A program made the position numbers and the translations under genes. The notes under the pieces were generated by a model. That model was not told where the DNA came from. It saw only the letters and a program-made list of their open reading frames with translations, and made no database searches. A stretch of 64,000 nt of DNA from Pedobacter heparinus DSM 2366 (GTDB lineage: Bacteria > Bacteroidota > Bacteroidia > Sphingobacteriales > Sphingobacteriaceae), in NCBI RefSeq assembly GCF_000023825.1, contig NC_013061.1, positions 930,001-994,000 of the forward strand, read 5' to 3'. This document shows positions 40,372 to 43,569 of this stretch, piece by piece; position 1 is the stretch's first letter; every line of letters starts with the position of its first letter.

Positions 40372-41217
40372 ATGAAGATCAAGATTCAATTGTGTATGGC
40401 TATGCTGTTGCTGGTGGTAACGGTAAAGGCCCAACGGAAACCCGCTGATTATATCAATGTAATGAGTTATAACATTCGTTATAACAATGATAAAGATGGG
40501 GAGAATGCCTGGCCAAACAGAAAAGATGAGGTAAAGGCACTCGTAAGGTTTCATGATGCCGATATTTTATGTGTGCAGGAGGCCCTGGCTTTGCAGGCAG
40601 ACCAGTTGCTGGAAAATACAAATTACGAAATGGCCGGTGTAGGGCGCACTGACGGAAAACGTGAAGGGGAATTTTCTGCTGTTTATTTTGACAAAACCAG
40701 ATTTGTTAAAAAGGATGGAGGTACCTTCTGGCTGTCGGATACGCCCGAAAAACCATCTAAAGGCTGGGATGCAGCCATAGTAAGGATCTGTACCTGGGTC
40801 AGGCTATATGACAAATGGAATAAGAAGGAATTTATGGTTTTTAATACCCATTACGACCATGTTGGTGTACAGGCCAGAATTGAATCGGCCAAACTTATTA
40901 AAAAGAAGATCCAGGAAATTGCACCAGCTTTGCCGGTCGTTTTAACAGGTGATCTAAACGTTACACCTGAAACAGAAGCCATAACTACCATAAAAACTTT
41001 TTTAACGGATAGCAAAGAAGTGTCGGAAGAGCCAGCTTATGGGCCGGAGGGAACCTTTAACGGCTTTAAGTTTAATGCCCCGCTTAAAGAGAAAATTGAT
41101 TATATCTTTATAAATAGAGGTTTTAAGGTGCAAAAGTTTGCCGTGCTTACCGATAGTAAAAACCAACGCTATCCATCCGATCACCTGCCTATCATGGCGC
41201 GTCTGTTTTTTAAGTAA
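40372..41217 (+). CDS. Secreted endonuclease/exonuclease/phosphatase-family hydrolase
   Basis: A 281-residue exported protein (signal peptide to about 20, KAQ) of the DNase I/sphingomyelinase-like metal hydrolase fold. Motifs are VMSYNIRYNN, DILCVQEAL with the metal-binding Glu, FNTHYDHVGVQARIESA with catalytic His, VVLTGDLNVTPET, and SDHLPIMARL at the end. Family members cleave phosphodiesters in nucleic acids, inositol phosphates or sphingolipids; the substrate is not readable. Twelve bases separate it from the Lgt-like gene, so it may share their operon. Confidence 0.88.
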   Translation: MKIKIQLCMAMLLLVVTVKAQRKPADYINVMSYNIRYNNDKDGENAWPNRKDEVKALVRFHDADILCVQEALALQADQLLENTNYEMAGVGRTDGKREGEFSAVYFDKTRFVKKDGGTFWLSDTPEKPSKGWDAAIVRICTWVRLYDKWNKKEFMVFNTHYDHVGVQARIESAKLIKKKIQEIAPALPVVLTGDLNVTPETEAITTIKTFLTDSKEVSEEPAYGPEGTFNGFKFNAPLKEKIDYIFINRGFKVQKFAVLTDSKNQRYPSDHLPIMARLFFK

Positions 41218-41229
41218 CAGGCTGGTATT

Positions 41230-41964
41230 TTGACTTTCCCTGTTCAGTTTACTATTTTCGGTGAAACCTATCACTGGCACTACATTTTTGAAGTGATTGC
41301 CTTTTTTGTGGGAGTACGGCTTTACTATTTTTTAAAGAAAGGGATTAAAGATCCTATTTCTGATGAGGATCGGTTGTGGATTATGTTAGGTGCAATGCTT
41401 GGAGCCCTGATTGGTTCGCGAATAGTTGCTGTACTGGAAGACCCCGCGCATATAAGGCAGATCAGCTTTTTTACCTTATACCAGAGTAAAACCATAGTGG
41501 GGGGCTTGCTGGGCGGTTTGTTTGGGGTTGAACTGATCAAAAAGATCATCGGGGTAAAAATAGCCTCAGGTGATATTTATGTTGTTCCCATAATTGTAGC
41601 ACTGTTTATAGGTCGGATAGGTTGTTTCCTGATGGGGGTTGATGAGCCGGTATTTGGCAAGGAAACCTCTTTTTTTATGGGAATGGACCTGGGGGACGGC
41701 TTAAAAAGACATCCTGTAGCGCTATATGAAATGATTTATATGGTGCTGTTGCTCCTCTTTTTTATTGGGATAAGAAAGAAAGAGCTGCTGAATGGCGACC
41801 GCTTCAAGCTATTTATGGTACTGTATTTTTCGTATCGTTTTGGTATTGAATTTATTAAGTCTTACCAGTCGCTGGTGTTAAATTTAAGCAGCATCCATTG
41901 GTCTGCTTTGTTTATATTGCTGTATTATTATAAATTCATCATCCGCATTGTGAAACAATTATGA
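41230..41964 (+). CDS. Divergent prolipoprotein diacylglyceryl transferase (Lgt) paralogue
   Basis: A 244-residue inner-membrane protein with about seven helices, of Lgt fold. Retained Lgt marks are GRIG (start of the signature, with its Arg), HPVALYEMI (the essential Glu of the QLYE motif) and YRFGIEFIKSY (the Arg/Glu pair near the C-terminus). Changed are the signature Asn (GRIGNF becomes GRIGCF) and the His of the GGMSFHGG loop (here IVGGLLGGLFG). It may therefore transfer a lipid or glyceryl group to something other than prolipoprotein. The only available start is TTG. Its TGA overlaps the ATG of the radical SAM gene (ATGA), so the two products are made together. Confidence 0.8.
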   Translation: MTFPVQFTIFGETYHWHYIFEVIAFFVGVRLYYFLKKGIKDPISDEDRLWIMLGAMLGALIGSRIVAVLEDPAHIRQISFFTLYQSKTIVGGLLGGLFGVELIKKIIGVKIASGDIYVVPIIVALFIGRIGCFLMGVDEPVFGKETSFFMGMDLGDGLKRHPVALYEMIYMVLLLLFFIGIRKKELLNGDRFKLFMVLYFSYRFGIEFIKSYQSLVLNLSSIHWSALFILLYYYKFIIRIVKQL

Positions 41965-43352
41965 AAGTAAGAGATTATATTTATTACGATTATACCAAAA
42001 GTTTGTGCCCGGAATGTTTACAGCTCTGTGATGCCAAAATTGTGTTTCAGGACGCAAAGGTATTTATGCTGAAGAACTGCAGAACGCATGGTGACAGTAA
42101 GGTAATGATTGCTGATGATGTGGAATATTATAAACAGATCAGGAATTATAACAAACAGTCGGAAATGCCTTTAAAATTTAATACAAAGGTGCATTATGGC
42201 TGTCCCTATGATTGTGGCCTTTGTACAGATCATGAACAGCATTCCTGTTTAACCATTATAGAGGTAACCGACCGATGTAATTTAAGCTGCCCGACCTGTT
42301 ATGCCATGTCTTCGCCAAATTATGGCCGGCACCGTAGCCTGGAAGAGATCAATAAAATGATGGATGTAGTGGTGGCCAATGAAGGAGAACCGGATGTGGT
42401 ACAACTTTCCGGTGGAGAGCCTACTGTACATCCCGATTTTTTCAGGATATTGGACCTGGCTAAAACCAAGCCCATCAAGCACCTGATGGTGAATACCAAT
42501 GGGATCAGGATTGCGAAGGATATTGGTTTTGTAGAGAAGCTTGCAACTTATATGCCCGATTTTGAGATTTACCTGCAGTTTGACAGTTTTAGTGCTGAGG
42601 TGCTGGAAAAATTGCGTGGGGAGGACTTAACGGAAGTAAGGAAAAAGGCAATCGACCATTTAAACCAGTTTAATGTATCGACCACCCTGGTAGTCACTCT
42701 TCAGAAAGGGGTAAATGATCATGAAATTGGCGATATTCTGAATTATGCCCTAAAGCAGAAATGCGTGCGGGGGGTAACTTTTCAGCCAACCCAAGTTGCG
42801 GGAAGGAATGACAATTATAACGACCAGCAGGGCAGGATCACCTTGACAGAAGTACGGCGGAAAATTTATGAGCAATATCCTTTATTTACCCCTCAGGATC
42901 TGATTCCGGTGCCCTGCAACCCGGATGCCCTTTGTATGGCCTATGCATTAAAGCTGGATGATGAAGTGATCCCGATGACACATCTGGTTAATCCGGAAGA
43001 CCTGCTGAACAATTCAAAGAACACGATTGTATTTGAACACGATGAAAGGTTAAAAGAACATCTGCTCAATTTGTTCAGCACGGGCGTCTCAGTTGATTGT
43101 GCAGAAGGTACCTTTGGTGAACTGATGTGCTGTTTGCCGAGGGTACAGTCGGACCATTTAAATTACAATAACCTGTTTAGGATTATCATCATGAACTTTA
43201 TGGATCCACTTGATTTTGACGTGCGGGCCGTTAAAAAATCATGTGTGCACATTGTGAGCGATAAGATGAAGATCATTCCTTTTGAGACCATGAACATTTT
43301 CTACCGTGATCATAAAATAGATACCATCCGTGAAAAATTAAATCTCAATTAA
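41961..43352 (+). CDS. Radical SAM enzyme related to tetraether lipid synthase (Tes/MJ0619 type)
   Basis: A 463-residue radical SAM protein. The SAM cluster is Cys106-x3-Cys110-x2-Cys113 (DRCNLSCPTCYA), followed by VVQLSGGEPTVHPDF. It also has an N-terminal Cys16-x2-Cys19 and Cys40-x2-His43 pair that could hold a rubredoxin-type iron, a second CX3CX2C (Cys81, 85, 88, GCPYDCGLCTDHEQHSC), and C-terminal cysteines at 319, 325, 380, 390, 391 and 428. This arrangement (CPxC, then CxYDCGLCxxHxxHxC, then the SAM cluster) is what I remember from archaeal Tes, which joins lipid chains. It overlaps the Lgt-like gene. The lipid role is inference from family and neighbour. Confidence 0.75.
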   Translation: MKVRDYIYYDYTKSLCPECLQLCDAKIVFQDAKVFMLKNCRTHGDSKVMIADDVEYYKQIRNYNKQSEMPLKFNTKVHYGCPYDCGLCTDHEQHSCLTIIEVTDRCNLSCPTCYAMSSPNYGRHRSLEEINKMMDVVVANEGEPDVVQLSGGEPTVHPDFFRILDLAKTKPIKHLMVNTNGIRIAKDIGFVEKLATYMPDFEIYLQFDSFSAEVLEKLRGEDLTEVRKKAIDHLNQFNVSTTLVVTLQKGVNDHEIGDILNYALKQKCVRGVTFQPTQVAGRNDNYNDQQGRITLTEVRRKIYEQYPLFTPQDLIPVPCNPDALCMAYALKLDDEVIPMTHLVNPEDLLNNSKNTIVFEHDERLKEHLLNLFSTGVSVDCAEGTFGELMCCLPRVQSDHLNYNNLFRIIIMNFMDPLDFDVRAVKKSCVHIVSDKMKIIPFETMNIFYRDHKIDTIREKLNLN

Positions 43353-43365
43353 TTATATTTACCAT

Positions 43366-43569
43366 ATGGAAGGCATTGTTTTATTATCTGTGATTTACTG
43401 GATTGTTGTTGCTGTGATTTTTTTAATAGGGATTATTAAGATTATTGTAGCTTCTGCAAACAATAAGCCTGTTAAGCCTGCCTTAAAATTGGTGATCGCT
43501 TCAGTCATCATGCTGGTTATTGGTGTGGGTGCATGTGCTGCCATTCTTGGTGGTATTAGTGTCAGATAG
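43366..43569 (+). CDS. Two-helix small membrane protein following the radical SAM gene
   Basis: A 67-residue protein with two hydrophobic helices (LSVIYWIVVAVIFLIGII, then KLVIASVIMLVIGVGACAAI) separated by a short basic loop (ASANNKPVKPALK). It begins 13 bases after the radical SAM gene, in the same direction. No motif reveals a function; it may anchor or assist the two upstream membrane-lipid type proteins. Confidence 0.75.
   Translation: MEGIVLLSVIYWIVVAVIFLIGIIKIIVASANNKPVKPALKLVIASVIMLVIGVGACAAILGGISVR

Follow-up and report, generated by a model that had tools for sequence, protein, structure and literature searches.

What would a bacterium make with a relative of the tetraether lipid synthase Tes and a second, odd copy of the diacylglyceryl transferase Lgt encoded side by side? 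The question is raised by a locus of Pedobacter heparinus DSM 2366 that lies in a 64,000-nt stretch of contig NC_013061.1 (positions 930,001–994,000, forward strand), here called the window; coordinates of the locus are given within this stretch. There, a gene for an Lgt-like membrane protein (LGTL) is followed by one for a Tes-like radical S-adenosylmethionine (SAM) protein (rSAM) and by one for a small two-helix membrane protein with a cysteine near its C terminus. We tentatively propose, as a plausible reading that falls somewhat short of probable, that these three parts work together as a module, with the small membrane protein carrying the modified lipid that they assemble. What the analysis shows is a conserved gene set, the Lgt and Tes folds of the two enzymes, catalytic residues and a conserved cysteine. 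Papers are cited by PMC number, from excerpts of their text, and labels beginning with L and G denote loci and genomes.

The radical SAM protein is a relative of Tes

Among sequences in the PDB, phmmer placed rSAM closest to Tes (7tol/7tom, E = 4.6e-66), with SkfB next (7.5e-6), and Radical_SAM (E = 5.6e-27) and Zn_ribbon_HMPTM (E = 4.8e-18) were the only Pfam domains over cut-off. Foldseek matched its AlphaFold2 (AF2) model to 7tom with E = 4.1e-34 and a TM-score of 0.77 by query over 498 columns, the next protein being MoaA (1.5e-9). The model, built from 27 sequences, suggests a Tes fold over the whole length; its confidence is modest (predicted local distance difference test, pLDDT, 69; poor at residues 62–94 and 348–395), so we make no claims about the lipid pocket. 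Both sequence and fold bear out the preliminary description of this DNA, which had taken rSAM for a Tes relative, and the closest solved match is Tes and not any peptide-modifying radical SAM enzyme. Tes, which has two hydrophobic pockets, forms C–C bonds between alkyl chains, and there is evidence for coupling of the substrate radical to an auxiliary cluster (PMC11186832); it reportedly also binds ester-linked phosphatidic acid (PMC13274423).

Along with the fold, rSAM shares with Tes (7tol/7tom; NF045702) an HMPTM-type N-terminal zinc ribbon, the radical SAM motif and the cysteines C16/C19/C40, C81/C85/C88 and C428. It is shorter, at 463 residues against a 526-residue Tes chain, and its C96, C268, C319, C390 and C391 stand opposite non-cysteine residues in the 7tol alignment. 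The cysteine layout described earlier is present throughout (C16-P-E-C19, C40-x-x-H43, C81-x3-C85-x2-C88 and C106-x3-C110-x2-C113, among 18 cysteines in total), and a full alignment of all 18 fails: nine (C16, C19, C40, C96, C106, C110, C113, C319 and C428) are invariant in 21 of 21 module enzymes. C81/C85/C88 occur in 18 of these 21 and in one of three solitary Tes-like proteins; C96 and C319 are missing from all three solitary proteins and present in L176 and L178, two relatives encoded next to methyltransferase genes. From this distribution, the cluster set of the module enzymes appears partly unlike that of Tes.

Scored against NCBIfam, the window rSAM reached 323 bits with TrsS (NF045646; cut-off 490) and 279.3 bits with Tes (NF045702; cut-off 450), and as it missed both cut-offs we rejected a plain assignment to either family. 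Ten relatives were scored in the same way. Three solitary Bacteroidota proteins (L153, L154 and L156) gave 432, 494 (493.8) and 442 bits with Tes, L154 alone passing the cut-off; five other module members gave 137–306 bits with Tes and 189–369 with TrsS, and the two methyltransferase-adjacent proteins 283–324 and 336–339. TrsS yields the highest NCBIfam score of the window protein, and C96/C319 are common to L176 and L178, which also score best with TrsS; the TrsS score alone cannot place rSAM, because the Tes-like L154 reaches 346 bits with it. L176 and L178 are likewise under the cut-off and differ in adjoining a methyltransferase gene. Judged by sequence score, the module rSAMs are a group of their own, and in a tree with several long branches they fall on one side of a weak branch (83/73). 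The closest matches among those listed are Pedobacter records, at up to 93% identity.

In L176 (4977–7345) and L178 (3893–6171), from Mycolicibacterium and haloarchaeal plasmids, the rSAM relative is followed by an overlapping methyltransferase gene; genes for CcdA and a disulfide oxidoreductase are also close by in Mycolicibacterium, and there is no annotated Lgt in the vicinity of either. The bacterial membrane-spanning lipid synthase Mss is reported to have the catalytic architecture of Tes and to couple fatty acids (PMC13274423). It is discussed alongside Ger, not Lgt, in the excerpted text, and is compared with rSAM here by description.

A small protein with a C-terminal cysteine follows the enzymes

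The preliminary description had recognized a two-helix membrane protein in the last gene of the locus, and underrated it: this protein, with its C-terminal cysteine, is almost always present as a third component. To the window we added 80 named loci, the best 80 of at least 583 relatives in a scan of named genomes. At 77 of the 81 loci, rSAM is followed by one or more short hydrophobic open reading frames (ORFs). At 76 of these 77, [GSA]x[GSA]xC lies within the last 40 residues of the first downstream ORF that is 50 residues or longer, with 3–13 residues after the cysteine, and the 77th (L087) has GFPSC, also with a C-terminal cysteine. Shuffling the residues of those 76 ORFs left a mean of 3.3 motif matches. 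As a control within the same loci, a motif ORF was sought after other genes as well: it follows 75 of 79 rSAM genes, none of the 73 LGTL genes and 2 of 573 other genes. Within 3 kb on their own strand, the three solitary Tes-like genes and the two methyltransferase-adjacent ones lack such an ORF. Small proteins number none at 4 loci, one at 47, two at 27 and three at 3, or 110 in total, and the motif is common to members of different BLAST clusters of this fast-diverging set. No Pfam or NCBIfam family matches the window ORF above its cut-off, the best score being 19 bits where 125 are required. The ORF behaves like a real gene in that the third codon position is the most divergent in all 7 comparisons made with relatives, one of which has 19, 7 and 42 differences at the first, second and third positions.

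Two features bear on how these proteins may sit in the membrane. In 104 of the 110, basic residues outnumber acidic ones in the stretch ahead of helix 2, and the distance from the last K, R, D, E or H to the cysteine is 15–19 residues in 103 and 15–20 in 106 (median 16); together they predict a cytoplasmic loop and a cysteine at the outer face. The same spacing, counted only between 7 and 25, has a median of 13 in 24 flank ORFs with an N-terminal canonical lipobox, which puts the small-protein cysteine about 3 residues further along. Because the cysteine protein is so nearly constant, the likely target of the enzymes moves from free membrane lipid to protein-carried lipid.

LGTL keeps the Lgt fold and both essential arginines

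LGTL matches Pfam LGT with E = 4.7e-23 (82.2 bits; gathering threshold 24.9), and E. coli Lgt (5azb) is the sole PDB match of its AF2 model (pLDDT 86) under 1e-3, at E = 3.7e-6. Since the genome's one ordinary Lgt is separate, near contig position 3,500,176, the gene is rightly called an Lgt paralogue and is an additional Lgt-like gene. It resembles E. coli Lgt (5azb/5azc) in fold, in the GRxG signature, in HPxxLYE and in both essential arginines, and differs in its length of 244 residues with a shortened periplasmic part, in Y26H, N146C and the lack of H103, and in scoring under the NCBIfam lgt cut-offs. In a profile alignment to 5azb, with chain numbering taken as literature plus one, R143, Y235, R239 and R246 of E. 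coli Lgt correspond to LGTL R129, Y199, R203 and K210, all four of them conserved in 74 of 74 LGTLs; Y26 and N146 correspond to H17 and C132, again in 74 of 74 each, and H103 to an unconserved V90. The signature motif and HPxxLYE are 32 residues apart in 71 of 74 LGTLs, those in which both patterns were found, versus 61–62 in 15 of 16 ordinary Lgts.

In E. coli Lgt, R143 and R239 are essential and phosphatidylglycerol is bound near them; the lipobox cysteine attacks this lipid, and the active site is presumed to lie towards the periplasm (PMC4728403). A 2026 study reports that Y26, H103 and N146 are essential as well, and that a second Lgt of M. smegmatis has Y26H and N146C and is presumed to have low activity (PMC13251419); this homologue, MSMEG_5408, shares its two changes with LGTL, a comparison made by description. 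In the ordinary Lgt of P. heparinus, too, H103 and N146 are replaced, by Y and C. A tree of LGTLs and ordinary Lgts, which includes one very long row, gave no clean split: two changes were needed, and a single origin appeared in 44% of bootstrap trees.

LGTL and rSAM occur together across Bacteroidota

LGTL was found at 73 of the 80 named loci and, by our own ORF calls, is the immediate upstream gene of rSAM in 68. Of the seven loci that lack it, three (L063, L069 and L087) belong to records that start at most 310 bases from rSAM, and a fourth (L064) has 879 bases upstream. In L059 (6289–6958) LGTL is broken by frame changes, possibly through sequencing error, and rSAM and the small protein are open; the other two are L078 and L110.

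We then counted genomes, including P. heparinus itself, at thresholds of E 1e-20 for rSAM and E 1e-15 for LGTL. rSAM is patchy, being present in 13 of the family's 101 genomes and in 35 of the phylum's 392; among the 392 Bacteroidota genomes LGTL occurs in 32 and both in 31, so that the pairing noted in the window holds across the phylum. Four genomes have rSAM only at threshold: G165, G395 and G476, with solitary Tes-like genes, and G194, where a divergent LGTL (23% identical) and a small cysteine protein are present. After the three solitary genes are set aside, the remaining 32 rSAM genomes all carry LGTL, and this company distinguishes rSAM from those three Tes-scoring genes. G116 is LGTL-only at threshold.

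Inside 1.5-kb flanks, LGTL accompanies rSAM at 35 of 38 loci (L004–L041). The exceptions are G467, with LGTL 2.3 kb upstream, and G133 and G361, with LGTL on another contig. The last two are more telling, because linked genes co-occur trivially and here the contigs differ. A cysteine-rich ORF flagged by pattern in G133 (L171:4740–5036) was judged spurious.

A proposed route to a protein-bound lipid, and its alternatives

In the order of steps that we infer, the small protein would first insert as a membrane hairpin whose basic loop is cytoplasmic and whose two termini are outside, a topology that would bring the cysteine at the end of helix 2 near the periplasmic face, approximately where the signal-peptide cysteine of a lipoprotein sits. 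LGTL would bind phosphatidylglycerol through R129 and R203 and pass the diacylglyceryl group to this cysteine, making the small protein the acceptor. As most small proteins have T, I or V at position −1 (74 of 110, with A or S in 29 others), lipoprotein signal peptidase would probably often leave the product uncut, and it would remain a membrane hairpin. rSAM, presumably cytoplasmic, would then take hydrogen from the ends of acyl chains and couple the chains through C–C bonds, either inside the protein-bound lipid or between it and another lipid or small protein. In its most specific form this would be a new post-translational lipidation, in which a C-terminal cysteine at the membrane edge receives diacylglyceryl from LGTL and the Tes-like rSAM welds the acyl chains, a reading that we find possible and rather doubtful; the lipid that then tethers the protein would be macrocyclic or membrane-spanning, and one lipid might even join two small proteins. 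The earlier suggestion that this locus modifies or joins lipids therefore survives in its gene association and its Tes and Lgt relatives; free membrane lipid is the less likely target, and the chemistry is what we infer.

Several observations weigh against this proposal. Three residues essential in E. coli Lgt (Y26, H103 and N146) are all replaced in LGTL, and the rSAMs of L155, L179 and L180 are without C81/C85/C88. The canonical lipobox, [LVI][ASTVI][GAS]C, occurs in only 2 of the 110 small proteins, and their cysteine is C-terminal rather than ending an N-terminal signal peptide, so ordinary lipoprotein processing was rejected. L078 and L110 are without LGTL in more than 5 kb (5–7 kb) of upstream sequence. 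G116 holds a module-type Lgt-like gene (L173:3156–3998), perhaps a relic, without rSAM at threshold and with no convincing small cysteine protein near it; in G133 no convincing small protein lies near rSAM or LGTL. Finally, a cytoplasmic rSAM and an outer-face cysteine would be on opposite sides of the membrane, and coupling would need chains that reach across.

Could the trio work on free lipids instead? rSAM might act on phospholipids as Tes and Mss do, giving membrane-spanning or macrocyclic lipids, with LGTL moving or retailoring glycerol ends and the small protein serving as scaffold or sensor. The Tes fold of rSAM fits such a role, as does the unconfirmed proposal that bacterial Tes homologues make branched tetraethers (brGDGT; PMC8941075, PMC11868695). 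We nevertheless think this unlikely: the three solitary Tes-like genes of the same phylum are without LGTL and, within 3 kb on the same strand, without small motif proteins, and a scaffold poorly explains why fast-diverging tandem proteins keep a cysteine predicted at the outer face.

That tandem arrangement, two or three small proteins at 30 of 81 loci with a fixed C-terminal motif, is reminiscent of enzyme substrates, and rSAM may modify the small protein itself in the manner of ribosomally synthesized and post-translationally modified peptides, for example through a thioether or backbone change around G-x-G-x-C, with LGTL lipidating or handling the product. Gly and Ser dominate positions −4 and −2 of the first small proteins, though the search pattern allowed Ala too and the 110 proteins were chosen by motif, so that counts at these positions are conditional. 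The lack of a SPASM domain in rSAM by Pfam, the wide margin by which the lipid enzyme Tes is the nearest solved structure and the fact that a thioether cysteine could not also carry a lipid all make this unlikely.

A third alternative is that LGTL has lost its diacylglyceryl transferase activity and serves just to present phosphatidylglycerol to the other two proteins, the cysteine forming a disulfide or holding a metal. It is suggested by the altered equivalents of Y26, H103 and N146 and by the shortened stretch between the signature motif and HPxxLYE, and is quite improbable given R, R, Y and K at the R143, R239, Y235 and R246 places of every LGTL and a single cysteine in 40 of the 76 first small proteins, which leaves no internal disulfide.

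Gene layout of the window

The positions and order of all four genes agree with the preliminary description, including the 12 bases between the EEP gene and LGTL and the ATGA overlap of LGTL with rSAM (Table 1). LGTL has a TTG start. The genome holds one copy each of rSAM and the small protein.

Table 1. Features of the locus, in window coordinates
Feature	Position	Strand	Basis
EEP phosphodiesterase gene	40372–41217		
LGTL (Lgt paralogue), 244 aa, predicted multi-helix membrane protein, Lgt fold	41230..41964	+	Pfam LGT, AF2 model
LGTL Arg129 codon (= E. coli Lgt R143)	41614..41616	+	Conserved 74/74; profile alignment to 5azb
LGTL Arg203 codon (= E. coli Lgt R239)	41836..41838	+	Conserved 74/74; profile alignment to 5azb
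Tes-like radical SAM protein (rSAM), 463 aa	41961..43352	+	7tol phmmer, 7tom Foldseek, Radical_SAM, Zn_ribbon_HMPTM
rSAM C81-x3-C85-x2-C88, possible auxiliary-cluster ligands	42201..42224	+	18/21 module enzymes; in 7tol
rSAM C106-x3-C110-x2-C113, radical SAM cluster motif	42276..42299	+	21/21 module enzymes
Small two-helix membrane protein, 67 aa, predicted acceptor	43366..43569	+	Motif ORF after 75/79 rSAM genes
Small-protein Cys57 codon, in IGVGAC, predicted lipidation site	43534..43536	+	[GSA]x[GSA]xC in 76/77 loci

The EEP gene, earlier counted with the other three, drops out of the module. Its cluster is found at just 13 of the 80 named loci: at 10 Pedobacter-type loci it lies two genes 5′ of rSAM, immediately ahead of LGTL, and elsewhere it is four ORFs upstream (L048) or on the opposite strand (two Chitinophaga loci). 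In the Pedobacter loci L043, L045 and L073 it is not beside the LGTL/rSAM pair. Given this patchy presence we rejected it as a component and regard it as a Pedobacter-type neighbour only.

Distant relatives and possible horizontal transfer

The trio reaches well beyond close relatives. The gene order of the window is kept in L160, whose small protein ends ...LQGLC plus a tail, and on a Persicobacter plasmid (L177). An order of rSAM-x-LGTL-small is seen in L151 (rSAM 38% and LGTL 31% identical; small protein ...LIFGSC) and in L174 (...LFGAC), there with about 1 kb between, and L155 has LGTL-small-rSAM (...SGGMC). At about 30% rSAM identity the trio recurs, partly reordered, in Actinomycetota, represented by records of a plasmid collection. 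Plasmids of Mycobacterium avium (L179; ...TAGIC and ...SAGYC) and M. branderi (L180) have the order LGTL-small-small-rSAM (L179:2222–5542, L180:2352–5545), with the two small cysteine proteins annotated as hypothetical. In Nonomuraea (L181, an 11.85-Mb record) the order is small-LGTL-rSAM; the small protein (L181:3129–4235; ...SAGIC) has a long proline/glycine-rich N-terminal extension ahead of its helices and cysteine motif.

In the rSAM tree the window clade groups with a Flavobacterium sequence (100/100) and not with Mucilaginibacter, which belongs to the Pedobacter family. The LGTL tree shows the same grouping, and together the two suggest that the module (window 41230–43352) was transferred horizontally.

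Two other ideas about the module were set aside. With PADLOC defence models, two rSAMs matched viperin models only in part (21–51 bits), and two LGTLs and two small proteins had no match; as nothing specific emerged, an anti-phage defence role was rejected. A viral origin was also rejected, none of 35 pattern matches in viral contigs being confirmed as a relative.

Meaning of the module

The open-licence literature searched for a combination of Lgt and a radical SAM protein yielded nothing that appeared to describe such a pair, PMC7641849 being unrelated. We found no known system joining these three parts; each enzyme alone is within a known superfamily.

The trio occurs as a compact gene set in Pedobacter, Flavobacterium and Mucilaginibacter, genera that are often cultured. 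If the proposal is true, protein-bound lipid would join free membrane lipid, for which radical coupling is known, as a target of that chemistry, and a C-terminal cysteine would be added to the sites of lipoprotein modification. The proposal would also give a function to one group of the bacterial Tes-like genes that surveys count as possible tetraether producers, and would thereby bear on how tetraether genes in environmental data are interpreted. The module may explain, too, why some bacteria retain a second, odd Lgt.

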